From assembly GCF_001485215.1 (NCBI RefSeq), contig NZ_BBWW01000001.1:5270001-5334000 (forward strand): DNA of 64,000 nucleotides, read 5' to 3'. Shown here one piece after another: positions 5,822-56,223 of the stretch. The notes below the pieces were generated by a model that saw only the letters and a program-made list of their open reading frames with translations, did no database searches and was not told where the DNA came from. A program made the position numbers and the translations under genes. This DNA comes from Leptolyngbya sp. NIES-2104. Lineage in GTDB: Bacteria; Cyanobacteriota; Cyanobacteriia; Leptolyngbyales; Leptolyngbyaceae. Every line of letters starts with the position of its first letter. The first letter of the stretch is position 1.

Positions 5822-7339
5822 CTAAGCTGCCGCCATCATGGTTTGCTTCGTCTCGGTAATCGCTTCTTTCAGCAGACTTTCCGCTTCGTCGCTCAATACC
5901 TTCTGACCTTGAACGATCTCAACATACTTCGGTTTACCCGTCTTCAGGTAATCGCGCAAGCTCTTCACAAACGTCACCACCTTATCAACCGGGATGTCAT
6001 CGAGATATCCGTTAATACCCGCGTAGATCACAGCAACTTGCTCTGCCACCGACAGCGGCGAGTATTGCGGCTGCTTCAGAATTTCACGCAGACGAACACC
6101 ACGCGCCAACTGATTCTGAGTTGCTTTATCCAGGTCAGATGCGAACTGTGCGAATGCTTCCAATTCAGCAAACTGTGCAAGCTCCAGTTTCACCTTACCC
6201 GCGACTTTCTTCATCGCTTTGGTTTGTGCTGCCGAACCCACACGCGATACCGAAATACCCGCGTTCACAGCCGGACGTAGACCCGCGTTGAACAAGTCAG
6301 ACGACAAGAAGATTTGACCATCGGTAATCGAAATTACGTTAGTTGGAATGTACGCTGAAACGTCACCCGCTTGAGTTTCGATGATCGGCAATGCAGTCAT
6401 GCTACCGCCACCCAGTTCATCGCTGAGTTTTGCAGCACGTTCGAGCAGGCGGGAGTGAACGTAGAATACATCTCCCGGATAAGCTTCACGTCCCGGCGGA
6501 CGACGCAGCAAGAGCGACATCTGACGGTAAGCCTGAGCTTGCTTAGACAAGTCATCGTAGATTACTAGGGTTGCTTTGCCCTTGTACATGAAGTACTCAG
6601 CCAAAGCTGCACCGGTGTAAGGTGCGAAGTATTGCAGGGTTGCCGGATCGTTCGCGTTTGCTGCAACAACGATCGTATATTCCATCGCCCCACGATCTTG
6701 CAGCACTTGAACAATGTTCGCTACGGTCGAAGCTTTCTGACCGACTGCAACATACACGCAGATCACATCTTCGCCTGCTTGGTTCAGAATCGTGTCAACA
6801 GCAACCGAGGTTTTTCCGGTTTGACGGTCACCGATGATTAACTCACGCTGTCCCCGACCGATTGGAATCATGGAATCGATCGCGGTAATTCCGGTTTGCA
6901 TCGGTTCACACACGGACTTCCGCGCAATGATACCGGGAGCCATCGACTCGATCAAACGGGTTTCGCTGGTATTGATATCGCCTTTTCCGTCTAGAGGACG
7001 TGCCAAAGCATCAACCACGCGACCGATCATCGCTTCGCCCACGGGAATTTGAGCAATCCGTCCGGTTGAAGTGACCGAGCTTCCTTCTTGGATGCTGCGA
7101 CCGTCGGACATCAAGACCGCACCGACGTTATCTTCTTCCAGGTTCAACGCCATCCCGACGGAACCATCTTCAAACTGCACCAGTTCACCGGACATGCACT
7201 TTTCCAAGCCATAAATCCGAGCAATACCGTCACCGACTTGCAACACGGTTCCGACATTTGCGACTTTCACGCCTTGATCGTAGGTTTCGATCTGTTGGCG
7301 AATAATATTGCTAATTTCGTCTGGTCTGATTGCTGCCAT
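5822..7339 (-). CDS. atpA: ATP synthase F1 alpha subunit
   Basis: 505 residues, standard length. It has the regulatory non-catalytic nucleotide site GDRQTGKT (Walker A), [19 protein letters not shown], and the Ser/Arg-containing segment [17 protein letters not shown]. It alternates with beta in the F1 hexamer on the cytoplasmic side of thylakoid and plasma membranes. No beta gene (atpD) is present here; in cyanobacteria beta and epsilon usually form a separate atp2 operon. It lies 40 bases after atpH. Confidence 0.98.
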
Positions 7340-7379
7340 TGGAAACCTCTGTTAAAGGAATGAGAAAGGAAAAGGGGGT

Positions 7380-7937
7380 TTAGTTTGAACTGGTCAAACG
7401 TAGCGTAATCCGACGGAGTTGACCGCGCAGACTCGCATCAATCACTTGTGAACCAACTTTGATGATCACACCACCGATCAAGTCTGGATCGATCTTAGTT
7501 TCGATTTCGACAGAGTTCGCATTCGTCATCGCAATGACTTTCTGGCGAACCGCGTTCTTCTGATCGTCGTTGAGTTCAACCGTCGAGGTGACTTCCGCTA
7601 AAACGGTTTGCTTCAGCTTCCGGTACAGTCGTTGATACTGCTGACAGATCCCTTCGAGAAACACCACACGACGACGATCGATAAGCAACATGATGAAATT
7701 CCGCATGAACGGATGCACCGCGTCACCGAACACCTGAGACAAAACCTCTCTTTTGAGATCGCCTTTTGCCAAGGGATTCGCGATAAAGTCCTTCAAGTCT
7801 TGCGAACCGTTCAACGTATCGAGAATGTTGCCGACATCTTCAGCAAAGCGATCGGTAAGATCATTCGACTTGCCCAAAGACATCAACGCCTGAGCATAGG
7901 GATCTAAAACTTCTGACCTTAAAATATTGTCTGCCAT
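7380..7937 (-). CDS. atpH: ATP synthase F1 delta subunit
   Basis: 185 residues. The N-terminal helical bundle includes VLDPYAQALMSLGKSNDLTD and the C-terminal signature is IDPDLIGGVIIKVGSQVIDA. It caps F1 and binds the b/b' stalk to fix the stator. The start lies 4 bases past the atpF stop, so translation is probably coupled. In cyanobacteria the gene is also called atpD. Confidence 0.96.
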   Translation of the reverse strand: MADNILRSEVLDPYAQALMSLGKSNDLTDRFAEDVGNILDTLNGSQDLKDFIANPLAKGDLKREVLSQVFGDAVHPFMRNFIMLLIDRRRVVFLEGICQQYQRLYRKLKQTVLAEVTSTVELNDDQKNAVRQKVIAMTNANSVEIETKIDPDLIGGVIIKVGSQVIDASLRGQLRRITLRLTSSN

Positions 7938-7941
7938 CGCT

Positions 7942-8505
7942 CTATCCCTCGCTCAATAACGCAATACTGCGATCGACTAACCGCTGCTGAGATTCATCAT
8001 TCAAGCGTCCGGGCAATTCACCTTCGGCGCGTTGCAGTGCCATATTTGCCACTCGCTGACGCAATTCGTTGATGATGCGTTCTTGCTCTGATGAGATGTC
8101 TGCCGCTGCGGTTTCACGCATCCGAATGATGTCTTGTTCTGCTTTCGCAAGAATTTCATCACTCGACTTCTTCGCGGCAGCTTCCGCATCAGAGCGAATT
8201 TTTGCAGCTTCTTGTTGCGCTTGAGCGAGTTTCTGCTGTTGTTCAGCCAGTTTCGCGGCGGCGGTCTTTCTCCGAGCTTCTGCTTCTGAAATCGCAGTCT
8301 CGATCGCGGTTCGGCGTTCGGTCAGAGCTTTACCCAAAAAACCACGCCCGAAGTAAACCACGATCGCAATCACGATGCTGAGGTTAATCAGGTTGGTTTC
8401 AAGAATATCGAAATTCAATCCGAAACCGCCCCCCTCTGCTTCTGCCACTGCTTCACCCAGGAGCGGGTGTAGCACTCCGCTGGCTAGTCGCAAATACATT
8501 TCCAT
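7942..8505 (-). CDS. atpF: ATP synthase F0 b subunit
   Basis: 187 residues. The single N-terminal membrane helix (LINLSIVIAIVVYFGRGFLG) is preceded by GGGFGLNFDILETN, typical of cyanobacterial b. A long Ala/Glu/Gln-rich coiled coil forms the peripheral stalk. It pairs with the b' subunit encoded just upstream to make the heterodimeric stator of photosynthetic ATP synthases. Confidence 0.96.
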   Translation of the reverse strand: MEMYLRLASGVLHPLLGEAVAEAEGGGFGLNFDILETNLINLSIVIAIVVYFGRGFLGKALTERRTAIETAISEAEARRKTAAAKLAEQQQKLAQAQQEAAKIRSDAEAAAKKSSDEILAKAEQDIIRMRETAAADISSEQERIINELRQRVANMALQRAEGELPGRLNDESQQRLVDRSIALLSEG

Positions 8506-8592
8506 GACATTCTTCCAAAACTGCGCGTGACTATCCCAAACTGGATGGGGAATAAAAAACGAATCGGGAGCCTTGATTAACCAGCAGCCTCG

Positions 8593-9015
8593 TTAAACTC
8601 CAGCTAATAATTTATCTAGAATTTCACGACTTAATGCTTCCACTTGTTGCTCTAACGTTGTCAGAGCTTCTTGTTTCTGCTGGTCTAACTCCTTCTGAGT
8701 CTGTTCCCGCTGTTGTTGTGCTTCTTGTTGTGCCGCTGCAATTTTCTGTGCTGCGATCTGGTTCGCTTCGGCTTGCGCTTTCGCGATCGCCGCTTGATAA
8801 GCCCGACGCGATTCTGCGAGTTCAGTTTCGTACTGTTTCGCTAACGCTTCCGACTTTGCCAATCGCTCTTTCGCATCAGCTTCAGTGCCCCGAATAAAAT
8901 CGTTACGATCCTCAACCACTTTCGTTAATGGCTTAAAGAACACGGCATTGAGCACAGCGACTAACAGTAAAAATTGCACCGCCATCAACGGCAGCGTTGC
9001 ATCAAAATCAAACAT
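8593..9015 (-). CDS. atpG: ATP synthase F0 b' subunit
   Basis: 140 residues from ATG 9015 ([20 protein letters not shown]), the conserved b' N-terminus with its single membrane helix. An Ala/Gln coiled coil of about 100 residues follows. An in-frame start at 9084 adds 23 hydrophobic residues ([14 protein letters not shown]) unlike the family and leaves only 2 bases to atpE, so the shorter form is preferred. It is called atpG or atpF2 in cyanobacteria and is distinct from the gamma gene also labelled atpG. Confidence 0.94.
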
Positions 9016-9086
9016 GATTAGGAGAAGGATGAAGATGAATAAGAAAGTGAGATCCAGAAAATCGATCCGGATCTCAGGCTTCATAC

Positions 9087-9377
<291 letters not shown>

Positions 9378-37925: not shown

Positions 37926-38188
37926 TAATACTCTGATTGCTAGAAATAGTTTCACAGTCAGCACCGCTAAAATTCGTTAGAAAACTTATCCGACTCGAGA
38001 CGAGTTGGTCGATTGGACTAATGGGGCAGGATATAGTCATAAATCTGCTACTGTAATTGTCTTTTTTTGCAAATATTCTGGTGGCTTTTCAGGTGGAAAT
38101 CAGAGAATTGAGATCGCTTCTCCATGCAATCACGCTTCAAAGTGTGTGCCGATCTGTATGATTGTGGTCAACGATTCGCACTGCATTT

Positions 38189-39037
38189 ATGGACTGGCTA
38201 ACTTCTTTCGAGCTTTCTCAACTGGGCGATTGGATGATGGCTCAAACACCGACTCCTTCGCCGACACCTCGATCGAGCGATCTTGAATTGCTCAGAAGCC
38301 AAATCGAATTTCTGAAAACTTCAAACGCTCAACTCAGCGATAGTTTTACCAAGTTTCTGGAATCGATGAAGTTCGCGCTGACTTTTCTGAGCATTCTAGG
38401 GGGCGTGGCGGTTGCGATCGTTGGGTTTCTGGTGGGGCAGAATGCGTTGGAGGCGAAAAAGAATATTCGAGAAGCGAGAGAGAATTTCCGAGAAGAAACC
38501 CGAATTACGACTCAGAGAATTCAGCAGCAATTTGAGTACCAGTTGGCGGCGCAAGTGAGAGATATGGTCGAACGGGAGGTGAATAGTGTTCGGCGAGTTC
38601 TCGATCGAGAACGTATTATCGGTTCTGCGATCGTGGATTACTATTTGCCGTCCAACGATTCTGAACCGATCGAGGAAAAACTGCTTCGAGAACGAGGCTT
38701 TCAGGAAGTTCGATTCTGGAATCGAGGCACTTTGAAAACATTACCAAACTCGCAATTCGCAGATGTTGTCGTTCTGGATTTGATTAATTCTCAAGTATTT
38801 CCTCCACAAGTCACGCAGCAGGAAAAAGAAGCGATCGTTGAGAGCTACATCAAGCAATTGAAGCCATTGTTATCACCCTATTCAGCTTTAGTGTTTTATG
38901 TGAAAGGCGGGCGCATTGACATAATCGACCATTCAGGACTGAAATACTATATTCCGGCAAATGCCACCGTTGCGCTGATTGGTGCGGTTTCAGATTCTGC
39001 TTATGTCGCTTATGGTCAGAAACAACTGAGAAACTGA
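38189..39037 (+). CDS. Membrane-anchored coiled-coil protein with Rossmann-like C-terminal domain
   Basis: About 282 residues from ATG 38189 (MDWLTSFELSQLGDWMMAQT). A Pro/Thr linker precedes one membrane helix (LTFLSILGGVAVAIVGFLVG). A charged coiled coil follows (ALEAKKNIREARENFREETR...). The C-terminal domain of about 130 residues alternates strands and helices (ADVVVLDLINSQVF; YSALVFYVKGGRIDII; ATVALIGAVSDSAYVAYGQK), a Rossmann-like pattern. Not recognised. It is the first gene inside the putative island and the nearest gene to the type III CRISPR module, so a role as a sensor or membrane effector is conceivable but unproven. Confidence 0.7.
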   Translation: MDWLTSFELSQLGDWMMAQTPTPSPTPRSSDLELLRSQIEFLKTSNAQLSDSFTKFLESMKFALTFLSILGGVAVAIVGFLVGQNALEAKKNIREARENFREETRITTQRIQQQFEYQLAAQVRDMVEREVNSVRRVLDRERIIGSAIVDYYLPSNDSEPIEEKLLRERGFQEVRFWNRGTLKTLPNSQFADVVVLDLINSQVFPPQVTQQEKEAIVESYIKQLKPLLSPYSALVFYVKGGRIDIIDHSGLKYYIPANATVALIGAVSDSAYVAYGQKQLRN

Positions 39038-39203
39038 AATCGGCAATAAGTTGGAGAACTGAATGCGATCGCAAAAGAATTCGTTGAGGTTGTAAGTCGA
39101 TCACAATTCTCTAGAGGAAAGCGCGATCGAGCGTTGGAATTGCTGCGATCGCGCTTCATCGAAACCAAGGAATCTATGGTGAGATTAAATATGCCGAGGT
39201 CTG

Positions 39204-39535
39204 GTTTCCAACTAATCCGATCACACTTGACCGGAAACAGTCGCTCCATGACTGCTGAGGAGAAGCAACAAGGCAAAGAATTGTTTCCAACTAATCCGAT
39301 CGCACCCGACCAGAAACACAAACCTTCTGGGGGGAGTTTGTGACAGTTTCAACCAGATACGTGTTTCCAACTAATCCGATCACACCCGATGAGCGGAAGC
39401 TTGAGAATTTCGCTGTAGGAGCGCAATCTTCAAGCAATCCGCTCTGAACTTGAGCGGAAACTTCTTTGACAACAGCGCCCGCACAGATAGGCATCAAATG
39501 CTTGTCATAAATGCGTTATTTCCAACTAATCCGAT
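39204..39535 (-). CRISPR. Degraded CRISPR mini-array, inverted relative to the main array
   Basis: Three 35-nt units at 39204-39238, 39283-39317 and 39363-39397 begin GTTTCCAACTAATCCGATC on the plus strand and the first two end with GGAAAC or AGAAAC. Decayed copies lie near 39431-39461 and 39518-39535. Spacers are 44-45 nt. The first 19-22 bases are the reverse complement of the 3' end of the main-array repeat, but the rest differs. Read on the minus strand the repeats end GGATTAGTTGGAAAC, so transcription would run leftward. Confidence 0.75.
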
Positions 39536-42902
<3,367 letters not shown>

Positions 42903-42933: not shown

Positions 42934-43746
42934 ATGTACACCAAACGTTATGGCATTATCGAAGCACTCGCGCCGCTGCATGTGGGAGCCAGTGCCGGAG
43001 AAGAAACGGGAAATCTGAACTTGATCTTCCGTGACCAATTCACTCAGACGGGCATCATTCCAGGGAGTTCGATTCGCGGTCGCTTTCGGGCAGACATGCG
43101 CCAGGAGAAACCCGGAGAGGAGCATCATTGGTATGGCAAAGCGATCAAAGAAGGCGACTCCGAAACGACAGAAGCTTTCGTGAAATTTGAATATGCGTCG
43201 ATCGTTTGGTTACCTGTGTTCTGTCCAGGACAGCCTGTAGTCTGGGTGACTTGCCCCTGGCTGCTCAAGCGATATCAGAAGATTGCTTATGATCAAGCTA
43301 TCGCGAAAGCATCATTACCGCTTCCCTACTCTGCACCGAAAGGATTGGGGCGACAGATCGGCAATAATATGACCCGGACTCTCTTTTTCAATCTAGGTTT
43401 TATTGAGCTAGAACACGAAGTTGACCTTTCGCCTTGGGTGCATCCAGGCGTGAACTTAAACGCGAACAATTTGGTCGTTGTTGATGATAACGACATCGCA
43501 ATGATTCATGATATGTCCCTGTTTCGTCAGAGTCGAGTCAAACTATCAGACACCGAGAAAAAAGTTGACGGCGGTGGATTTTTCAACGTCGAAGCGTTAC
43601 CAGAAGGAACGGTCATGGTGTTTCCGATCGCAACTCGCGCTCAAGGATGGCAGCCCTTTCACTCAGACACTTCAGAGCTATATTTTGGTGGGTTGGAGTC
43701 GATCGGGTTTGGTCGTTGCCATGTCACATTGTCGGAGGAGAACTAA
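42934..43746 (+). CDS. cmr4: Cmr4-like Cas7 backbone subunit lacking the usual catalytic Asp
   Basis: 270 residues. Cas7/RAMP features: LAPLHVGASAGEETG near the start, then GIIPGSSIRGRFRADM and the glycine loop LYFGGLESIGFGRCHVTL at the end. In Cmr4/Csm3 the target-RNA-cleaving Asp lies in GVDxPxxRD just before PGSSLKG. Here the matching stretch is GNLNLIFRD (26-34), with Leu at the Asp position. If the by-eye alignment holds, this backbone would bind but not cut target RNA. Confidence 0.85.
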   Translation: MYTKRYGIIEALAPLHVGASAGEETGNLNLIFRDQFTQTGIIPGSSIRGRFRADMRQEKPGEEHHWYGKAIKEGDSETTEAFVKFEYASIVWLPVFCPGQPVVWVTCPWLLKRYQKIAYDQAIAKASLPLPYSAPKGLGRQIGNNMTRTLFFNLGFIELEHEVDLSPWVHPGVNLNANNLVVVDDNDIAMIHDMSLFRQSRVKLSDTEKKVDGGGFFNVEALPEGTVMVFPIATRAQGWQPFHSDTSELYFGGLESIGFGRCHVTLSEEN

Positions 43747-43748
43747 TC

Positions 43749-44171
43749 ATGGGTTGGAAATCTTATGATCTCGATCGCATTGCTCAAAAATTAGTCCTGA
43801 ATGCCAGAGCAAGAGATTCACAATCACTCAATCAGTCCCATAAGATGCGAATGGCAGTCGCTTACGGGCTGGAACGGTTCTGGGGTGAACATTTACGCCT
43901 CAGTGGAAAAGAACAACAGAAATCAGACTACTGGAAAGAAACGTGGGATGAACTCGTTGCCATCATGAAACGAGCAGGCGTAACGATTCCCAATGATCCA
44001 GTCAATGTCAATGATGTGAAACAAGTCCAAGCGATGTCAGAGAAGCTATGGGCATTGAGATTAGAAGATCAACGAATCGCGATCGCGGTTCTGACACAAC
44101 TCTGTGATTGTGTCGTCTGGTGGACACAACGCTACAAAGTCGGGAGATTAGTCGATGACAGTGATTCCTGA
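43749..44171 (+). CDS. cmr5: Cmr5-like small subunit (Cas11)
   Basis: 140 residues from ATG 43749, 2 bases after the cmr4 stop. All-helical, with DLDRIAQKLVLNARARDSQS, HKMRMAVAYGLERFWGEHLR and a Trp-rich last helix DQRIAIAVLTQLCDCVVWWT. Position between Cas7-like genes and helical content identify it as the small subunit that lines the target-RNA groove. Sequence conservation in this family is low, so the call leans on context. Confidence 0.78.
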   Translation: MGWKSYDLDRIAQKLVLNARARDSQSLNQSHKMRMAVAYGLERFWGEHLRLSGKEQQKSDYWKETWDELVAIMKRAGVTIPNDPVNVNDVKQVQAMSEKLWALRLEDQRIAIAVLTQLCDCVVWWTQRYKVGRLVDDSDS

Positions 44172-45843
44172 GCCACACAAGAAAGTCCCGATGCTGTTTC
44201 GGGCACAAGTGAATGGACGCTGCCAACTTCAGCGCATCTTGAAAGATGAAGAACCGGATGCAGTGCAATGGACAGATGAATGGGTCGATAAAGTCTACCC
44301 TGAGCTACCGGAACTAGGGGAGACTGTTCGATCGAGAACTTACAAAATTACTTGGCGATTGATCACCAATTGCGGCATGGATGATAGTGTGATTCGTCCG
44401 GTGATTGGGGCGCGGGGCTGGGTGTACTATCCGGGGAGCAGCATGAAAGGACTGTTTCGCCGCGCTTGCACTCCCGAACAAGCCGCAAAGTACTGTGGCA
44501 ATCTTGAAAAACCTGGAATTCTACGGTTTCAAGGTGGCTATCCGATCGACACCAGTTGGACAGAAAACCTGGTCGATATTGTCCATCCCCAACAAGGCTG
44601 GCAAGTCGAAGACCAAGCGAAAAAATCGGCTGCATTTGCTCAGATATCCCTCTACAAACCAACTCTGCAATTTAGTATTTCTAGCAGCGCTAAAGATGTG
44701 AATTGGGAGGAGGTTTGGCAGATTTGGGAAAGCGCGATCGCAACTGGATTAGGCAGTCGCGTCTGTGCTGGCTACGGTCACGTTGAAACCAGCCGCGAAA
44801 CTTCTGTCGCTCAAGGCTTGAAAGTTCTCTACCGCACTCGCCTCAAAGGACAGGGACAAGCTCCAAAACTGCTCAATGGTAGCGGCGAATTTCGTCCGAA
44901 CATTTTTCGGGCAGCGTTGCGGGGTCATGCACTGAGAATCTTTGGTGGACTGACCGACGATCGTACTGCAAAACGCTTAGTCGAAGAGTTGTTTGGCGGA
45001 GTCAGCGGTCATGGTGTTGTGGGACTGGTTGGCTTGCGCTTTCAGGAATCTCGATTGGCTTTACCGAAGTTCCAAGCTGGATCGGCTTATGAGCAAATCG
45101 CTTATGAGGTCGAAGGAGAACTGAGTTTACTGTTAGCCCGATCGCTAAAAGATCCCACGCATGAGGAAACGCTGAAGAAACTACTGGCGCAATTGGTTCA
45201 GTTTGCGATCGTACTCGGCGGATTTGGGAAGTCTTGGCGACGAGCGGATCATCGCTTGTTTTTTGAGGAGTACTACGAGAACGATCGCTATAAGCCGCTG
45301 ATTGGGTGTCATTGGCAATGGTTGGGGGAAATGGCGTTGCGGCGGGATGTGCAAGTGCGATCGCTCGATCAGCTAGGGGGATTTATTGAGAAGGTGCGAG
45401 ACACGGCTGCGGCTTGGATGCGGTTTCAGCAGGTGAGTCCGAATCCGGCACGGGCGGCGGATTGGCGGGAGGCTTGGCATCCGGAGCGGGTGCAGGTTTG
45501 GGGGCGATTGGCGGCAAGTGGGGAGGAGAGTGAGGCGATTCGCTGGTTTCATGGAGCGTATCAGGAGCGAATTGCTCGTGTGCAGGCGGAAGGATCGATT
45601 TATCGATCGAGTGGGTTGACTGGGAAGGTGGGACAGATTGGGCGATTGTGGCATCGGATGTATCCACGGGTGAAGCTGGTGAAGAAGAAGCAAGATCCGG
45701 AGGGGAAGCCGGAACCGAGGGTAACGGGTGAGTTTTTGGAGTGGTTGACGATTTTTCCGGATGAGTCGCAGGAGTGTGAGCAGTTTTTGCGGTTTTTGCA
45801 GGGTGAACCGTTTGGATTTCGACGACTTTGGGGAGACGAGTGA
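44155..45843 (+). CDS. Fused double-RAMP protein (Cmr6-like + Cmr1-like)
   Basis: 562 residues, about twice one Cas7 unit. The N-terminal half is Cmr6-like: TYKITWRLITNCGMDDSVIR, GWVYYPGSSMKGLFRRACTP and the glycine loop GLGSRVCAGYGHVETS. The C-terminal half is Cmr1-like: FRPNIFRAALRGHALRIFGG, GLVGLRFQESRLALPKFQ and the loop VLGGFGKSWRRADHRLFF. GMDDSVIR (74-81) matches the GVDxPxxR catalytic motif that the Cmr4-like subunit lacks. It overlaps cmr5 by 17 bases. No separate cmr1, cas6, cas1 or cas2 follows. Confidence 0.82.
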   Translation: MTVIPEPHKKVPMLFRAQVNGRCQLQRILKDEEPDAVQWTDEWVDKVYPELPELGETVRSRTYKITWRLITNCGMDDSVIRPVIGARGWVYYPGSSMKGLFRRACTPEQAAKYCGNLEKPGILRFQGGYPIDTSWTENLVDIVHPQQGWQVEDQAKKSAAFAQISLYKPTLQFSISSSAKDVNWEEVWQIWESAIATGLGSRVCAGYGHVETSRETSVAQGLKVLYRTRLKGQGQAPKLLNGSGEFRPNIFRAALRGHALRIFGGLTDDRTAKRLVEELFGGVSGHGVVGLVGLRFQESRLALPKFQAGSAYEQIAYEVEGELSLLLARSLKDPTHEETLKKLLAQLVQFAIVLGGFGKSWRRADHRLFFEEYYENDRYKPLIGCHWQWLGEMALRRDVQVRSLDQLGGFIEKVRDTAAAWMRFQQVSPNPARAADWREAWHPERVQVWGRLAASGEESEAIRWFHGAYQERIARVQAEGSIYRSSGLTGKVGQIGRLWHRMYPRVKLVKKKQDPEGKPEPRVTGEFLEWLTIFPDESQECEQFLRFLQGEPFGFRRLWGDE

Positions 45844-46035: not shown

Positions 46036-48708
46036 CTTGCACCGATCCTTTGCGATCGGATTAGTTGGAAACACATAAGAGCGTTGAAAACTCGTTCGAT
46101 CGTTTGCTTGCACCGATCCTTTGCGATCGGATTAGTTGGAAACCAACCAATGAAAGTTACAGATTCACTGTTTCTAACTTGCACCGATCCTTTGCGATCG
46201 GATTAGTTGGAAATCAAACGATCAAAGCAGGTATCGAACCCACCTATCTTGCACCGATCCTTTGCGATCGGATTAGTTGGAAATCCCCATGCCCGAAACC
46301 GAAACATCTGCCGATTCGTATTCTTGCACCGATCCTTTGCGATCGGATTAGTTGGAAATAAAAACGTAAACAATGATTGTTGTTTCAAAACAATACCTTG
46401 CACCGATCCTTTGCGATCGGATTAGTTGGAAATTTTAGCCGTGGTTTAGGAAGCATCATATTAGTAGCTTGCACCGATCCTTTGCGATCGGATTAGTTGG
46501 AAATTTCTCGCTCCTCACAAGCGAGTAGCTCATACTTAACTTGCACCGATCCTTTGCGATCGGATTAGTTGGAAATCGTGCGGATTCTTTCTAGGAGACA
46601 TAGCCGCATTTTTCTTGCACCGATCCTTTGCGATCGGATTAGTTGGAAATGTAATAACGTACGAAACCTTTCCAATCATTCGGAAAACTTGCACCGATCC
46701 TTTGCGATCGGATTAGTTGGAAATTCCGCCGAATCGCTTCTTGTTCTTCAGCCGTGCGTTTCTTGCACCGATCCTTTGCGATCGGATTAGTTGGAAATCC
46801 GCTAGATTCGCGATTTTCTTTGTTAAGGGCATCACTTGCACCGATCCTTTGCGATCGGATTAGTTGGAAATGTTCGCACTCATCACAACGGAATTCATAA
46901 TTCTGGCTTGCACCGATCCTTTGCGATCGGATTAGTTGGAAATTTTTCCATATTTTCAGTAATGCGATCGTCTAACGTCCTTGCACCGATCCTTTGCGAT
47001 CGGATTAGTTGGAAATGAACGCTTTACGACTGATTAAAGTAGAGCACTTCTCTTGCACCGATCCTTTGCGATCGGATTAGTTGGAAATGCAGTTGCAATG
47101 CTTGGGAGATTTCGTACAAGAGGCTTGCACCGATCCTTTGCGATCGGATTAGTTGGAAATGCTTTGGCGACAATCTTTCCGTGCATGAGCGATTCCTTGC
47201 ACCGATCCTTTGCGATCGGATTAGTTGGAAATCGCCTTGTAAATCGGGTTGTGATTTTGGGTCACACAACTTGCACCGATCCTTTGCGATCGGATTAGTT
47301 GGAAATGATGAATCGGATCTTCACCCCGACGCATCAACAGCTTGCACCGATCCTTTGCGATCGGATTAGTTGGAAATTACGATCGCGCCTGCTGCTGTAA
47401 CTGGTAAAAAGCTTGCACCGATCCTTTGCGATCGGATTAGTTGGAAATTGTTTCATTCCAATCGATCGATCGATTAGGCGGAATCGCTTGCACCGATCCT
47501 TTGCGATCGGATTAGTTGGAAATTCCTTGCAGCTAAAGCACGGTCTTCCAGGTCTTGAGCACTTGCACCGATCCTTTGCGATCGGATTAGTTGGAAATGC
47601 CTGCAATGTTTTTGAACAGAATGAAATTCCGCCTACTTGCACCGATCCTTTGCGATCGGATTAGTTGGAAACGATCTACACTTTTAATGATTGGACTCCT
47701 TCCTAATCCTTGCACCGATCCTTTGCGATCGGATTAGTTGGAAACGTGTAGGTGTAGGAAATAGTGGAATTGTCGGTAGAACTTGCACCGATCCTTTGCG
47801 ATCGGATTAGTTGGAAACCCACCAATAATGGGGCTTAACTCTGGAGATACATCAAACCTTGCACCGATCCTTTGCGATCGGATTAGTTGGAAACTGAACC
47901 GCTCAAGAAACTCGACAACGACACGGGGGCTTGCACCGATCCTTTGCGGTCGGATTAGTTGGAAACTCATTTTTGCAGTATGCCAACGCATGACAATTCA
48001 GACTTGCACCGATCCTTTGCGATCGGATTAGTTGGAAACTGTCTCGTAGTTCGGGTAGTGCTGTCACCAACGGGCATGACTTGCACCGATCCTTTGCGAT
48101 CGGATTAGTTGGAAACTCCGCATTAGGGTAGCGCCCTCTAATTTGTTCAAGTGATTGTTCTTGCACCGATCCTTTGCGATCGGATTAGTTGGAAACTGAC
48201 TGATAATTAAGATCGAGGTTTCGACTTGTTTGCTTGCACCGATCCTTTGCGATCGGATTAGTTGGAAACCGTTGGATATTCGTCAAATGATTTCCTTGGC
48301 GTTGACTTGCACCGATCCTTTGCGATCGGATTAGTTGGAAACTACCATCGGTCTTTGGTTTGCAGTCGGATCAGTTTTACTTGCACCGATCCTTTGCGAT
48401 CGGATTAGTTGGAAACAAGTGAATTTTGTTGAAATAGTTTGGGTCTGTGTCTTTCTTGCACTGATCCTCTGCGATCGGATTAGTTGGAAACGAGTATCGC
48501 AGACAGGTCGATCGACTTGGGAATGTTCCTTGCACCGATTGATTGCGATCGGATTAGTTGGAAACCAGTAGATGAAACTTGGAGTATGAGTCTCACGCAT
48601 CTCGCACCGATCAATTGCGATCGGATTAGTTGGAAACTGCCCATCGTTTGTCGTTTGTCGATTGAATACAGCAAACTTGCGCCGATTCTTTGCGCTCGGA
48701 TTAGTTGT
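46036..48708 (+). CRISPR. Main CRISPR array, 37 repeats of 37 nt and 36 spacers
   Basis: The repeat begins CTTGCACCGATCCTTTG and ends CGATCGGATTAGTTGGAAA(C/T), with an internal palindrome CCGATC...GATCGG. I counted 37 copies from 46036 to the broken last copy at 48676-48708; spacers are 33-43 nt, mostly 34-38. Repeats 1-2 and 23-36 end in C, repeats 3-22 end in T. Copies 34-37 are increasingly degenerate, marking the trailer end. Direction follows from the GGAAAC-type 3' end and the decay. It directly follows the cmr operon. Confidence 0.97.
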
Positions 48709-50049: not shown

Positions 50050-53000
50050 TCAATCTTCCTCAAAGCTTTGTTGAGAAAAGCGTAGAACACGGCAGTTTTC
50101 TGAAACGGTGCGAATGACGTTATCTGGAATGCCGTCTGGCGCGTTCACCTGAATTTCGAGCGTGATTTGGACATCGGCATTGAGACTGCTGAGATGCTGG
50201 ATCACTTCATTCGCAATTTGCGAGGTGTCGCGTGTGAGCCGAATCGGGTCGATCGATACAGCACCATAAAAACGCTGTACCTGTTTTTTCGGAGCAGCGA
50301 TCGATGGCAAACTGCTTTCACTAACTCGGAGAGATTGATTTGCTTGAGTCTTGTGATTTGGGTCTTGTCCGACTTCAGCGGAATTGTTTGTATCAACGAT
50401 CGCATTTCGAGCCGCTTCATCTGCATTCAACTGACGGAGTGCGACTTCAGGCTTAACAATGAAGTTTTGGGAACTCAATGAAACTGTAAAGGATTCTCTC
50501 GTTCCTGCTTTTAAGCCCAAATAGCGCTGTTTCGTGTCATCCCAACCCGTTGCATAAGCAAAATTTTCCTCCCAAAGCATTGCTGCTGCACCATCTTGAA
50601 TCGATTGAATCAGGATTTGCTCGTTTTTGAGTCTGGGGAGATAGAGGTAGTTCGATAAGTATGTCCAGAGTTTCTTAAGATCGAGGTGATCGACATCGCG
50701 CCATAGATAATGATCGAGTGCCTCTAATCGCAGAAAGTTCGCCGCGCAATTCGTCAGCAGATGACCTTCATGCAATGCTTTGCGGCTGGCACGCAGAATC
50801 GGAGAATCTTGCCCCTGGAGACGAACCTCTGTCCAGATTAATTGGTCTTTGGGATTAGTTGCGCTGGGATCGTGACCGGGAACGAGCAGCCATTGGTAAG
50901 CTTCTTTTAGCTGATAGTCAACGGTTTCAGTTGTTTGGGTGCGTTTAGCGATCGCTTGGTTACTCTGAAAAACATCTAAGTTGAGAACCGTTTTGTCTTG
51001 AACGATCGAGTCCCAAGCCAAATACTGACCGACACTTTGTTCTAGAATGGCAACCTTGGTTTTGTCAGGCACGAGGAACAACAGCAAATTTTTACAGTAG
51101 CGGGGACTCGCTCCCTTGTGACTGAGAATTGCCTCAACTTGCTGACGGGCTGCACTATCTGAGGTTTTAGCAATGTGAGAATGTTGGGAACTCAGAACAA
51201 CAAGGCGAACTCCCATTGTTTCTTCGTCAGGAATGTCAGCCGTTGAATCAGGAGCAATGTGAACGCCCGCAAATTCGCCCCGCTGCTTATCACTTTTTAG
51301 ACGATTGATGATTTCTTCCCAGATTCGGTCTTTGTCTTCTTGGATCTGGGTGGCGCGATCTTGAGCGGTGCGCGTGACATTGGGCTGAGTGGAGATCCAG
51401 TACCGATTGTTGCTATCGACGTAGAGATAGGTGGCTTGGTCGGTGAGGCGGCGGAGAGCATCCCCGAAGGTTGCGACGGTTTCGCCGGGTTGAACACAAC
51501 CGAGTTTGATTCGGCGATCTTCAATGCCTCGATTTGCGGCTTGGAGCGTGGGAGCCGAGCCGAGATAGATGGTTCGAGTGACGCGGCGACAGGCAGAGTA
51601 GCGTCCTAAGTTTGGGTTTTGATTGTCGATCGAAACAGGTAGCGAGTTTGCACCATCCACATCTTTTTCGATCACTGGAACCCAAGGATCGTCTAGATAG
51701 CGGGTGAGTTCGGTCTGCACTTGAGTATCATCCATTGAGATACTGGCAGGCATGATCAGAAGGTTCTTGTCTCCTCTGTCCCAAAGAGAATGAATCACTT
51801 TTGCCATCAAGCGTAAAACGCCACGGGTGCGCTGAAATTTGTCGAGGGTTGACCAGTCGGAGTAGAGTCGATCGAAGACTTCAGGATGAATCGGATACGC
51901 TTCTTCAAGGCGACGCTTGTAGCTAGCTTCGCGGCATTCGGAGGGAAATTCTTGTGCCTGATTTTGATAGAGATCGAAGAAAGCACGAACGACCGCATCG
52001 CGCGCAATGTAGGCATCGGGGTTGATCGGTTGAAAGAGGCGGCGACGCACAATTTCAAAGCTTTCTTCGGCGCTGGCGGGTCGCCACGGGGATTCGACTC
52101 GCCCGATCGCATTTTTGAGCCGATCGAGTGCCTGTTTTCCGCGATCGCCACCAATTTCGATATCAGAAGCCGGAATGCTGACGACGAGGAGAGTACGATC
52201 GGCGTTTTTGGCAGATTCGCTTAGGGTTTGGGCAAAAGTGACGTGAGTATCGAAGTTTCCGGCGGGAAGGTCGTTTTCTTCGTGAAGCTGACGGGCATAA
52301 GCAACCCACTCATCGATTAGAACTAGACACGGAGCATAACGGTTAAAGAGTGAGGTGAGCACATCGCCGGGGTTTGTGGCAGTTTCGTCGGATTGGCGAA
52401 TCATTTCGTAAGCGGCTCTGGCTTCTTGGGTTCCGCCTGCTGATTTGCCGAGTTGCCAAGCGATTTCGCCCCAGAGGGTGTGAACGATCGTGCCATCGGG
52501 TTTTTCGTGGGGTTGTCCTGGAGAAATCTTGTTACCGACCAGCACAACGGTATTGACAGTTTGAGGAGGTTCAGAAACGCCGACTTCTGCAAAAATTGGC
52601 TCTAATCCAGGTAAGTCTTTGGCATCGACTCCAGAACAAAGGTGATAGAGGGAGAGCATGGCATGAGTTTTGCCGCCTCCGAAGTTGGTTTGAAGTTCGA
52701 TGACGGGGTCGCCACCTTTGCCACTGAGTCGGGTTAAGGCATTTCCGAGTAGATGTTTGAGTCCATCGGTTAGATAGGTGCGGCGGAAGAATTCGTTGGG
52801 TAGGCGGTATTCATCGGAGCCTTTGTCCAGAAAAACTTGCCAGAGATCTGCTGCAAATTCGGCTTGTTGATAGCGACCGGAAGCGACATCTTGATGAGGC
52901 GTGACGATTTCGCGCCAGGGCTTGAGTCCGCTAACAGGTGTGCCTTCGAGGGAAGTGGCAGCGGCGCGGCGGGTTTCTCGACGGGCTTGTTCTTCGTAGC

Positions 53001-53424
53001 GCAGGCGGCGAAGTTCTTGGCGTTGCTTCTCAATGATTTCGGCTTCGGGGGCGGAAATTTCATTCAGGAGACGGACGATCGTATCTAATGCCCGCTCGGT
53101 GTCTTCAGTCGAAAAATTGCTGTGTGCCCAAGTATTCCGAACTTCAAGGAGTTCGTTGATGTAGGCGCGATGGTGTTTGCTGAAGATACTGCCGAAAACG
53201 TCTTTCCATAGTCGATCGATGAGTTTCAACTGAAGTGAAACGTCTTCTTGGAGCATTTGCTCTGGGGTGGATTTGGACGATCGATTGGCGCTGAGGGTGG
53301 GGGTGATTTGGGTGAGCCAAGCGGAACGATAGCGATTTTTGAGTTCTCGATCGATGAAAGGATAGAGACCGTCTCGCAGGAGATCAAGGGCGCGACCGAC
53401 TCGTTCTTTGTTGGTGATTGCCAT
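50050..53424 (-). CDS. DUF499 ATPase with N-terminal Swt1/HEPN-type domain
   Basis: 1124 residues. Residues 1-125 form a helical HEPN-like domain of the Swt1 type, with RNTWAH (R96 to H101) matching the RX4H RNase motif. The DUF499 ATPase part has Walker A QTNFGGGKTHAM (GGGKT 249-253) and Walker B CLVLIDEWVAY (about 366-376). The C-terminal part is long and ends VRTVSENCRVLRFSQQSFEE. It begins 3 bases after the DUF1156 methyltransferase stop, so the two are co-translated. DUF499-DUF1156 pairs occur in DISARM-related antiphage arrays. Predicted motor of a defence complex. Confidence 0.85.
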   Translation of the reverse strand: MAITNKERVGRALDLLRDGLYPFIDRELKNRYRSAWLTQITPTLSANRSSKSTPEQMLQEDVSLQLKLIDRLWKDVFGSIFSKHHRAYINELLEVRNTWAHSNFSTEDTERALDTIVRLLNEISAPEAEIIEKQRQELRRLRYEEQARRETRRAAATSLEGTPVSGLKPWREIVTPHQDVASGRYQQAEFAADLWQVFLDKGSDEYRLPNEFFRRTYLTDGLKHLLGNALTRLSGKGGDPVIELQTNFGGGKTHAMLSLYHLCSGVDAKDLPGLEPIFAEVGVSEPPQTVNTVVLVGNKISPGQPHEKPDGTIVHTLWGEIAWQLGKSAGGTQEARAAYEMIRQSDETATNPGDVLTSLFNRYAPCLVLIDEWVAYARQLHEENDLPAGNFDTHVTFAQTLSESAKNADRTLLVVSIPASDIEIGGDRGKQALDRLKNAIGRVESPWRPASAEESFEIVRRRLFQPINPDAYIARDAVVRAFFDLYQNQAQEFPSECREASYKRRLEEAYPIHPEVFDRLYSDWSTLDKFQRTRGVLRLMAKVIHSLWDRGDKNLLIMPASISMDDTQVQTELTRYLDDPWVPVIEKDVDGANSLPVSIDNQNPNLGRYSACRRVTRTIYLGSAPTLQAANRGIEDRRIKLGCVQPGETVATFGDALRRLTDQATYLYVDSNNRYWISTQPNVTRTAQDRATQIQEDKDRIWEEIINRLKSDKQRGEFAGVHIAPDSTADIPDEETMGVRLVVLSSQHSHIAKTSDSAARQQVEAILSHKGASPRYCKNLLLFLVPDKTKVAILEQSVGQYLAWDSIVQDKTVLNLDVFQSNQAIAKRTQTTETVDYQLKEAYQWLLVPGHDPSATNPKDQLIWTEVRLQGQDSPILRASRKALHEGHLLTNCAANFLRLEALDHYLWRDVDHLDLKKLWTYLSNYLYLPRLKNEQILIQSIQDGAAAMLWEENFAYATGWDDTKQRYLGLKAGTRESFTVSLSSQNFIVKPEVALRQLNADEAARNAIVDTNNSAEVGQDPNHKTQANQSLRVSESSLPSIAAPKKQVQRFYGAVSIDPIRLTRDTSQIANEVIQHLSSLNADVQITLEIQVNAPDGIPDNVIRTVSENCRVLRFSQQSFEED

Positions 53425-53427
53425 GAC

Positions 53428-56223
53428 TTATATGGGGAGGAGTTCGATTTGCTGGGTGGAGGCGGATTGAGCGGCGAGACGGGTGATTTCTGCCCAGGAG
53501 ATCACAAGGCTGTTGTAGGCGATCGCTTCTTGGGTCCAGGATTTGCGATCGCAGATGTTGTAGAGGCGGTAGGCGAGATCGCGGTAGATTTCAGCGCGAT
53601 CGGGGTCGAGTTGGTTGAGCAGGAATGCGGCTTGATGTTCTCCGCGTTCTTGCAGGGTTTTGATCAGGTGTTGGGTGGCTTCCCAGTCGGGGATGCGGGT
53701 GTCGCCTATGGGGTTCCATTGGGCGGGGAGATCGTCGCGGTGCAGAAGGCGGACTTTGCCGTATTTGGCGGTGAGAATGCCTGCGGTGACTAAGCCTTGA
53801 ATGCTGGTGACTTTGGCTTTGGAGAGGGTTTCGGCATCGCCAAAGTTACCGTCCTCGAATTGGTGTTGCTCGAACCAGGTGAGTGCCCAACGGGTGTCGG
53901 CATCGAGTTCGCCTTCCTGTTCGGTGAGGTATTCGTCGAGGGTTTGGTTGATCAGTTGTAGGGCGGTGCGGACGCGCATGGGGGAGCCGTCGGATTCGAG
54001 GACTTGTTTGTAGCGGGAGAAGACTGCCATGCCGGGTCCGATGCTGGCTTGGGCGAGATCGACGGGGGCGATGTTGCCTTGCTGCATGGCGCGGAGGGCG
54101 GCGGGGAGTTCGCGTTTGAGGGCGGTGAGGAAGTCGCGGCGGGTGGTTTTGGCGGCGTTGGTGGGGAGAGGGCGACAGACGAGAGCGATTGAAGAAGCAA
54201 GAGCATTCTTGCCCTGTCCCACTATTCGATTGTCTCTTTCTGTTCTCATAGGCCACGTTCCAGTTACACTAAAGCCTGATTGAATCAGACTTTCCAGCAT
54301 AGTCTCCCATCCTGTAGATGCAGCAATCCTCAGCGCATTTGCACTATCCTTTTTCACTTCAGTTTGTTTAAAGGCATAGAAGACAGTGAATGGATAGTCA
54401 GGATGAGAGGCTTCGTAAGTTCTTCTAAATGCTTCGTGCAGTCCATCCTCAAAAAACTGGCGAGCTTTTTCTTTATCGCCTCCAAATCGATACGGTGCAG
54501 CAACTAATTCTTGTTCTTTTGGAGTTGCTATCGTGCTGAAGAGGGTAGGATAAATATCCTCAAGTGAACGACGCAGCCAAACATAAAAGAAGTCAGACAA
54601 TTCTGCGTAACTAATGTTGTCATAGTATGGAGGGTCAGTTGTAAATACAAGTGCTGGCACAGAAGTATCTCTAACATACTTTGTTGCGTCCTGCTGGTGA
54701 GCGTAACCAGGCAGTCCTTTTCCAAGATTATTGATTGCACGAACTACAGTCTTAATCGTAGTTATATAGTCACCAGCAGCGTTGTTAAAAGTGTTAGATT
54801 CAGCGTAATCCCACACCATTGGAATAGCTTGTTTTGTAAAAGCGTGAATTGCCTGATCTGTACTCGGTGACCATGTTGCTAATGCACATAAACTATCACT
54901 TAGTTTGCTTAGAGCAAGTCCTAAATAAGTTGTGACTGCATCTGCATAAACTGCCGAATCAGTTGAATTCTTCTCTGAGCTTGCTTCTCTAGCTTGATTG
55001 ATGTCATGACATATCTGTTTGTGTGCTTCTTTAACTAAATCACTGAGAGTAGTAAGGGCGACAAGTTGACGAGGAGTAAAAAGATCTGCGGGAGTATACA
55101 ATCCAAAGTTACGGCACCATAAATCGCGAGGATTTGGAGCAAATTCTATTGCTAGATCTGTAGTATCAACCTTTGGAATCTCAGGACAAGGAGCAAAGTA
55201 AGCAGGTAGATACAATCTACCTCTCTTGGCTTGAACTACTACGGCTGTTGGTACAATGCCTAGAAACTTGGCTTTCGCTTGCTCAGATACATAATCTCTT
55301 GTTGTTACCGTCTCACAGAAGGCGCATTCAAAAATTCCTGATGTTCCGCGTTTGAATCCTTTTTTTGGATCTTCGTATCGTTGAGGTGGCTTATTGCTGA
55401 TACTGAATTTAACTTCTTGTCCTGAGACTTCAGGTACTAAGTAAGCTTCTTTCCCCTTCTTTGAAGATAGAACAAACGAAGATAAAAGCGGCATCTGACA
55501 TCCACAAGTCGGATTCGGACACTTCACCGTTCTCGCCCACAACCAAGCAATAACCGTCGCCTCACCCTCACCCAATTCCTTTGGCAATTTCACCTTCGGA
55601 TACAGATGCCCAATCCGCTTTTCTGCCTCATCCCGAATCCATTTCCCGTAGTAGCGCACATCTTCCGCCAACCCTTGCGCCCCAAACCATTGATTCGCCT
55701 TCAGTTGCTTCTGTGCCTCCGGATTCACAGGCGGCAGATCCTTAAACTTCGGCGGAATCTCAATCAACGCCTTCGTAATCAGCACCGCCACCGGATTGAT
55801 ATCACTCGCATGAGCTTCCAACCCCAACCGCTGCACCTCCAACGGAATCGATCCCCCACCACAAAACGGGTCAAGCACCGGAGGCGGATTCCCATTCGTC
55901 GATTTCAGAATCTCTGCTTGCGCCTCTGCTAACAATGCCTGATTATTCACATTCTCCCAAGCCACCAGTTTTTCGATCAATTCCAGCAGTCGCTTTCTCT
56001 CTGTTGCCTGTGCTTCTTCAGTTGGAAACTCTTCGGGTCGTGCAGAAGGATCATCGACCAAAGATGCAAATAATACAGCCCGACAAGATGCAAGCGGTCT
56101 CCGCGCCCACCAAAGATGCAGTGTCGAAGGATGCCCGTGACGAATCGACTTTTCACGCGCTGACTGTTTGTTAATCTCTTCTAGAGGGAGGGAGACTTCA
56201 ATGAGTTTCTTACGATCGGGCAT
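53428..56223 (-). CDS. DUF1156-domain DNA (adenine) methyltransferase
   Basis: 931 residues. N-terminal DUF1156: LIEVSLPLEEINKQSAREKS, IRHGHPSTLHLWWARRPLAS. SAM-binding motif I VLDPFCGGGSIPLE (118-124) and catalytic motif IV TDPPYYDNISYAEL (DPPY from 530) predict N6-adenine or N4-cytosine methylation. Two Cys pairs (CPNPTCGC and CAFCETV) suggest a zinc ribbon between them. It would mark host DNA. First gene of the unit with the DUF499 ATPase; divergent from the DUF4351 gene. Confidence 0.9.
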   Translation of the reverse strand: MPDRKKLIEVSLPLEEINKQSAREKSIRHGHPSTLHLWWARRPLASCRAVLFASLVDDPSARPEEFPTEEAQATERKRLLELIEKLVAWENVNNQALLAEAQAEILKSTNGNPPPVLDPFCGGGSIPLEVQRLGLEAHASDINPVAVLITKALIEIPPKFKDLPPVNPEAQKQLKANQWFGAQGLAEDVRYYGKWIRDEAEKRIGHLYPKVKLPKELGEGEATVIAWLWARTVKCPNPTCGCQMPLLSSFVLSSKKGKEAYLVPEVSGQEVKFSISNKPPQRYEDPKKGFKRGTSGIFECAFCETVTTRDYVSEQAKAKFLGIVPTAVVVQAKRGRLYLPAYFAPCPEIPKVDTTDLAIEFAPNPRDLWCRNFGLYTPADLFTPRQLVALTTLSDLVKEAHKQICHDINQAREASSEKNSTDSAVYADAVTTYLGLALSKLSDSLCALATWSPSTDQAIHAFTKQAIPMVWDYAESNTFNNAAGDYITTIKTVVRAINNLGKGLPGYAHQQDATKYVRDTSVPALVFTTDPPYYDNISYAELSDFFYVWLRRSLEDIYPTLFSTIATPKEQELVAAPYRFGGDKEKARQFFEDGLHEAFRRTYEASHPDYPFTVFYAFKQTEVKKDSANALRIAASTGWETMLESLIQSGFSVTGTWPMRTERDNRIVGQGKNALASSIALVCRPLPTNAAKTTRRDFLTALKRELPAALRAMQQGNIAPVDLAQASIGPGMAVFSRYKQVLESDGSPMRVRTALQLINQTLDEYLTEQEGELDADTRWALTWFEQHQFEDGNFGDAETLSKAKVTSIQGLVTAGILTAKYGKVRLLHRDDLPAQWNPIGDTRIPDWEATQHLIKTLQERGEHQAAFLLNQLDPDRAEIYRDLAYRLYNICDRKSWTQEAIAYNSLVISWAEITRLAAQSASTQQIELLPI

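Follow-up and report, generated by a model that had tools for sequence, protein, structure and literature searches.

Target RNA bound by type III-B complexes is typically cut in a ladder of 6-nt steps, although this is not a formal criterion of the type, and type III signalling is usually switched off by cutting of the target. Several described systems share traits with the locus reported here. The Cmr complex of Thermus thermophilus (TtCmr) has the same Cas10-Cmr3-Cmr4-Cmr5-Cmr6-Cmr1 set and, like our locus, an HD-less Cas10 with a GGDD motif (PMC8376896). A Cmr1-6 fusion is shared with the cyanobacterial III-B system of Microcystis FACHB-524, which was compared by its description (PMC11855584), and the III-Bv system of Synechocystis (pSYSA) also combines a Cmr6-Cmr1 fusion with a Cmr4 without the Asp (GNLLGIARE). 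A likeness of another kind is offered by type III-Dv of Synechocystis, in which a few non-repeated Cas7 sites with a single Asp each make one cut each. Finally, the catalytic Asp of the backbone Cas7 is not conserved in III-G, III-H and VII (PMC12669027).

The window, by which we mean the whole stretch of 64,000 nucleotides analysed (Leptolyngbya sp. NIES-2104, contig NZ_BBWW01000001.1, positions 5,270,001 to 5,334,000), contains a type III-B operon. Cas10/Cmr2, Cmr3, Cmr4 and Cmr5 share this one operon according to Pfam, NCBIfam and PADLOC, with NCBIfam equivalog matches of the operon proteins that fall below their cut-offs. Cmr6 and Cmr1 are present as the halves of one protein, as judged from its fold and from the PADLOC Cmr6 profile PDLC01212, and a CRISPR array adjoins the operon. 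The features are the following, in window coordinates:

38162..39037, + strand: Mem_02-type membrane protein with 2TM and a globular domain (PADLOC PDLC01156, E 2e-93)
39203..39544, − strand: short array upstream of cas10, four degenerate copies of the main-array repeat, inverted
40148..41848, + strand: Cas10/Cmr2, 566 aa (Pfam Cmr2_N 11-64 and palm2 299-424; PADLOC Cas10b, E 5e-189)
41841..42902, + strand: Cmr3, Cas5-like (PF09700, 2.9e-8; PADLOC Cmr3), with a predicted start codon
42934..43746, + strand: Cmr4 backbone with Asn29 for the catalytic Asp (TIGR02580, 5.7e-23; 82.2 bits, slightly below the cut-off of 87)
43018-43020, + strand: codon of Cmr4 Asn29, in place of the catalytic Asp
43749..44171, + strand: Cmr5, Cas11-like (PADLOC PDLC01476 Cmr5, E 1e-66), with a predicted start, as the PADLOC match begins at residue 35 of a longer ORF
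44155..45843, + strand: Cmr6-Cmr1 fusion, 562 aa (ORF; both halves by fold; PADLOC PDLC01212)
44374..44397, + strand: motif G74-M-D76-D77-S-V-I-R81 in the Cmr6 unit (alignments and profiles)
44380-44382 and 44395-44397, + strand: codons of D76 and R81 in the Cmr6 unit of the fusion
44821..45834, + strand: Cmr1 unit of the fusion, residues 223-560 (VIA-align Z 21.1 to 9l7c_A)
46036..48416, + strand: main CRISPR array, period mostly 70-80 nt, with a 32-nt repeat core

The GGDD motif of Cas10 was read from its sequence, and the Pfam scan found no HD domain in this 566-aa protein. The HD-less Cas10 was considered as a special feature of the locus and set aside, given that nine other III-B Cas10s have just 494-624 aa; for one of the nine, TtCmr, the absence of HD is described. 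The main array contains 32 exact copies of the repeat core, with degenerate copies beyond, and these are all the exact copies in the genome. The Mem_02-type protein upstream of cas10 is a possible candidate for a signalling effector; relatives of it adjoin related systems in the loci L032 and L086. On the other side of the array, at 50050-56223 on the − strand, a HEPN_Swt1/DUF499 protein (1124 aa) lies beside a DUF1156 protein (931 aa) with a weak D12 methyltransferase match, and this pair is perhaps another defence locus.

The 562-aa protein had been described in the initial annotation as a Cmr6-Cmr1 fusion made of two RAMP units with separate glycine loops, and the fold matches of both halves show that this name is correct. 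The protein had no Pfam match at E 0.1 and, in NCBIfam, a sub-threshold Cmr6 match only. The PADLOC Cmr6 model PDLC01212 spans its residues 9-559 (E 7e-215), and the protein family is therefore already catalogued. In an AlphaFold2 model built with 35 relatives in the alignment (pLDDT 81.9, pTM 0.85), residues 223-560 matched Cmr1 by VIA-align (9l7c_A, Z 21.1, rmsd 3.5, 273 aligned; 4l6u_B, Z 20.2, rmsd 3.2, 245 aligned) and residues 2-211 matched Cmr6 (3x1l_H, Z 11.7, rmsd 4.2, 194 aligned; 9x25_I, Z 11.4, rmsd 4.5, 196 aligned), while Csm3 chains were found at about Z 10 over residues 56-217. By these matches the fusion is made up of two units, Cmr6 (about residues 2-212) and Cmr1 (223-560). 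Each unit has its glycine loop, GLGSRVCAGYG at 198-208 and GGFGKSWRR from 355, both read from the sequence.

Cmr4, the repeated backbone subunit, lacks the catalytic residue, as had been claimed from the sequence. Where the canonical Cmr4 and the Csm3 of T. thermophilus have Asp (GAIDLPIARE and GDLDNPVVRN), the Cmr4 of the window (GNLNLIFRD) has Asn29, so that a residue typical of III-B, though no formal criterion of it, is replaced here. Asn was found in 33/33 aligned relatives, in an alignment that omits L033 (partial), L044, L055 and L059, and in all 36 group-A Cmr4s when near-duplicates were included. It fell on the catalytic column of three custom HMMs wherever it was covered, that is, in 9/33 rows with the Csm3 HMM (24 not covered) and in 33/33 with both the combined Csm3+Cmr4 HMM and the Cmr4-only HMM. 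The site itself (residues 19-36) has a pLDDT under 50 in the AlphaFold model of Cmr4. In P. furiosus, Cmr4 D26N abolished target cleavage in vitro (PMC7192623), and by analogy we infer that a backbone of the window's type would no longer cut target RNA. It is improbable, in our opinion, that Asn29 supports slow cutting by the backbone, with a weak ladder remaining and D76 being incidental. Such slow cutting would agree with the invariance of N29 (33/33), since a dead site might drift as it does in group B2 (L, M or V), and with that of the nearby H16, R33 and D34 among the relatives aligned, but the in vitro result of D26N speaks against it, as does the dependence on Asp of each of the three III-Dv sites (D26, D33 and D246), whose catalytic roles were shown by mutation (PMC11026444).

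Loss of the catalytic Asp of Cmr4 may be general in cyanobacterial III-B, according to the sequences of a survey that rests on L097-L124, L075-L093 and L095. Among the best 30 Cmr4 loci by score, the motif was readable in 28 and Asp was kept only in L097 and L098.

The loss of target cleavage has a cost in S. islandicus and P. furiosus with an active Cas10. RNase-dead Cmr4 led to dormancy or death in S. islandicus (PMC9368842), and the D26N strain of P. furiosus was obtained only with both Cas10 DNase and Csx1 inactive (PMC7192623). Because the loss of the Cmr4 site was toxic or unobtainable in these organisms, a GGDD-positive clade without it should need another off-switch.

A candidate for this role is in the Cmr6 unit of the fusion. 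The sequence GMDDSVIR does stand shortly before PGSSMKG in the first unit, as had been noted, within N72-C-G74-M-D76-D77-S-V-I-R81-P and then P93-G-S-S-M-K-G99. The spacing of five residues from D76 to R81 is that of the catalytic Asp and Arg in Csm3 (D-N-P-V-V-R) and in canonical Cmr4 (D-L-P-I-A-R), and the loop of group A reads G-[Q/M/V]-D76-x4-R81. Both D76 and R81 are conserved in 34/35 aligned group-A relatives and were kept or lost as a pair across the 35 rows; this alignment omits L032, L044, L055, L056, L059, L061 and L068, which are truncated, near-duplicate or fragmentary. Among the Asp residues of the fusion, D76 is the second-most conserved (rank 54/562) after D141 (rank 27). The initial annotation had singled out both D76 and D77, of which the first was upheld; the D77 column is variable (D 21, E 10, S 2 and A 2 in 35 relatives) and D77 was consequently rejected as the important residue. 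Should either Asp be active, D76 is the one to be expected. In the larger group-A set, near-duplicates included, D was kept in 38/40 fusions with the loop covered. One of the two exceptions, L032, is 80% identical to the fusion and was discarded as a counterexample, since foreign sequence at the edge of the contig interrupts the gene. The other, L060 (L060:3105-5036; GQFDGIIFP), has Phe in place of both D76 and R81 in an operon that is otherwise retained, Cmr4 Asn included; the loss of both residues is what would be expected if the two act together. In L034, two different fusions stand in tandem (5833-7440 and 7499-9175), with loops GQD-SIARP and GQDDGIIRP, perhaps as alternative end caps.

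Matches to the fusion were found in 56/386 genomes of the phylum, and close ones (E of at most 1.2e-64, fragments among them) in 37. Their loci divide into group A, which has a short Cas10, and group B, which has a longer one. In Cas10 frames of 400 aa or more, GGDD was present in all 34 group-A proteins examined (474-609 aa) and in all 20 of group B (754-1055 aa). A gene family matching Csx1 (CARF-HEPN in the one member scanned, as representatives of clusters were used for accessory genes) lies beside 22/38 group-A loci. In a Cmr4 tree obtained by a quick method and with the motif columns included, a branch with a support of 94 separates group A from all other sequences. The tree gives no order for the loss of the Cmr4 Asp and the gain of D76-x4-R81, because the joins of A, B and canonical sequences rest on long branches. 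The genome under study also carries, at C1:1207263-1207418, a remnant of a group-A fusion with three stops and 65% identity over residues 118-173.

Whether D76 lies on the catalytic column depended on the profile used. With the Csm3 HMM, built from 10 sequences (9 of 12 Csm3 matches plus T. thermophilus Csm3) with no Cmr4 included, D76 fell on that column in 29/35 rows and 6 were not covered. On the same column this profile placed the canonical Cmr4 Asp in 9/9 controls and III-Dv D26 and D33, with D246 lying outside this control, in which the best domain per protein was read. In agreement with this, hhalign to the Csm3 set paired D76 with the catalytic Asp (probability 65, E 6e-5). The combined Csm3+Cmr4 HMM, which like the Cmr4-only HMM contains the canonical Cmr4 controls, placed D76 on the column in 9/35 rows (26 not covered); the Cmr4-only HMM placed R81 there, and not D76, in the 2/35 rows covered; and the canonical Cmr6 HMM covered 0/35 fusion rows. 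Since the Csm3 HMM is composed mostly of same-phylum Csm3, two of the HMMs include their own controls and all 35 fusions belong to a single family, the profile counts are not independent trials. Other registers were given by hhalign to canonical Cmr4 (GMD opposite its glycine motif GTGQ, R81 opposite the Asp), to group-B2 fusions (D76 opposite Gln and D77 opposite Glu), to the combined Csm3+Cmr4 set (catalytic Asp opposite a gap) and to canonical Cmr6 (yet another register for the loop). Given these conflicting registers, the Asp may sit a few residues off the catalytic position.

D76 precedes the helix proline P93 by 17 residues in 33/35 rows and by 16 in the other two, inside the range of proven sites; in those of III-Dv the spacing to the helix is 14 for D26, 14 for D33 and 17 for D246, which equals that of D76. 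The group-A loop, N-x-G-Q-D-x-x-I-R-P, also resembles that of same-phylum Csm3 (GGLDKPVIRDP). VIA-align yields residue ranges and no loop superposition, and in the monomer model the loop holding the motif (71-80) has a mean pLDDT of 57, so that the direction of D76 cannot be placed in space. The claim that the motif has the position and form of the Csm3/Cmr4 active site is borne out for its form; for its position, the Csm3 and combined HMMs (29 and 9 of 35 rows) and hhalign to Csm3 agree with it, and the Cmr4-only HMM and four other hhalign comparisons give other registers.

Acidic residues in this loop are also found in other Cmr6 units. Canonical Cmr6 has a Glu 15 residues before the helix, exactly the spacing of the Cmr4 Asp, in 8/9 sequences (one was not matched), and this Glu fell on the catalytic column in 1/9 with the Csm3 HMM, 6/9 with the combined one and 4/9 with the Cmr4-only one, the rest being not covered. 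We know of no canonical Cmr6 that cuts RNA. For TtCmr-46, which contains four Cmr4, the published scheme shows four cut sites (PMC8376896), so that an acidic residue in this loop does not imply cutting. In group-B2 fusions, including that of Synechocystis III-Bv, Glu or Asp is at or next to the aligned place in 11/11, with Asp in L083 and L086. Asp-x4-Arg does not occur in the loops inspected, which come from 8 canonical Cmr6 and 11 group-B2 fusions. On the sequences compared, an acidic loop residue is usual for Cmr6 units, and group A is distinguished by the Asp followed by x4-Arg. Group-B1 fusions have HPD in 9/9, laid over D76 by MAFFT; in these fusions (L072-L074, L076-L081) an insertion whose length varies lies between HPD and a PG[SA] or PAS helix. 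The Cmr4 of B1 has no Asp in the column according to MAFFT, but the next residue is E or D, and HPD together with this shifted acidic residue is possibly a second rearrangement of the site. In B2, all 11 Cmr4s read GN[LV][LMV]GIARE and have no Asp in the column, which makes them III-B relatives that lack a backbone site.

In view of these residues it is a real possibility, although we put it short of an even chance, that the whole complex is cleavage-dead, detecting RNA and signalling through Cas10 only. D76 would then descend from the non-catalytic acidic residue of Cmr6 and serve the fold of the loop or contacts with RNA or a neighbouring subunit. The Glu of canonical Cmr6 (8/9), the Glu or Asp of B2 fusions and the B2 Cmr4s without Asp (11/11 each) are all consistent with this, as is L060, which retains its operon with neither D76 nor R81. 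Against it, cleavage loss was toxic or unobtainable in S. islandicus and P. furiosus with active Cas10, the group-A loop is closer to Csm3 (GG-x-D-x4-R) than to canonical Cmr6 (E-x4-L), and the pair D76/R81 was kept or lost together in the 35 rows.

The reading that we prefer is that the end subunit makes a single cut. In this mechanism, the fusion would hold the crRNA 3' end, the target RNA would be bound along the crRNA and Cas10 would be switched on. With the Asn29 backbone unable to cut, D76 of the Cmr6 unit would be the one remaining Asp-type site, and a bound RNA would receive no more than one cut, close to the crRNA 3' end and some 6 nt past the position of the last Cmr4. With a cut so far out, the transcript would be severed and the Cas10-facing stretch would stay paired, for which reason the second-messenger output would outlast that of canonical Cmr complexes. 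We place this proposal, of a dead backbone, a single cut by D76 near the crRNA 3' end and a longer signal, a little below an even chance. Sequence and fold are the basis for the subunit set and the residue swap; the assembly, the cut, the number of cuts and the longer signal are inferred.

That D76 acts on an RNA other than the target, for instance by cutting or trimming the 3' end of the crRNA, is very improbable. This function would fit with the Cmr6/Cmr1 end holding the crRNA 3' end (PMC8376896, PMC5965380) and with cas6 not being seen in the operon, but in the published cases considered the homologous Asp acts on the target strand, and 3' trimming is thought to be due to a host nuclease (PMC8376896). 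The only PF10040 match of the genome is next to cas1 and a different repeat type, 819 kb into the 5.7-Mb contig, and PF01881 had no match in the genome. The only cas1 and cas6 matches are thus far from the III-B array (L171, 812-830 kb), in a locus that reads like type I-D by its ORFs.

The initial annotation had proposed that RNA cleavage may have moved from the repeated backbone to a single end subunit, with one cut replacing a ladder. The loss in the backbone, the conservation of an Asp in the cap throughout the clade, the Csm3 profile and the spacing of D76 support it in part, while the Glu or Asp of Cmr6 elsewhere and the other registers weaken it. As a general statement, that this III-B clade moved target-RNA cutting from Cmr4 to the Cmr6-Cmr1 cap and so has a one-cut, long-acting natural signalling complex can be put forward only tentatively and well short of an even chance. 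In any case, the clade keeps its cyclase site intact alongside a Cmr4 change unobtainable in an otherwise active Pyrococcus, and with its "dead" backbone residue and cyclase motif it is a natural test of whether cutting is needed at all or can be reduced to one cut at the end. If D76 cuts, the complex would offer an RNA tool that cuts once, and it would be a plain example of an active site that has passed from one paralogous subunit to another.

In comparison with known systems, TtCmr has separate Cmr6 and Cmr1, which in the window are one protein; the window's Cmr4 has Asn for Asp, and its Cmr6 loop is Asp-x4-Arg versus Glu-x4-Leu in TtCmr. Synechocystis III-Bv differs in its full-length Cas10 of 979 aa, against 566 aa in the window, and in its fusion of 649 aa with the loop GHRGPESILLPAF, which has Glu and no x4-Arg. 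Its crRNAs are reportedly processed by RNase E, to go by the title of the 2018 paper of Behler. Type III-Dv shares the 17-residue spacing of D246 but has three active sites, other subunits and fusions, and no Cmr6 or Cmr1. In III-G and III-H the Cas10 palm is inactive and in VII the nuclease Cas14 cuts, whereas the window keeps GGDD (PMC12669027). Cmr1-Cmr6 fusions (PMC11855584), HD-less Cas10 (PMC8376896) and Cas7 Asp loss in III-G, III-H and VII (PMC12669027) were already known. No account of an Asp swap from Cmr4 to Cmr6 was found in searches of an open-access library. What appears to be new, from the sequences, is the residue swap across a whole clade, a variant of type III-B with close matches in 37 of the 386 genomes.
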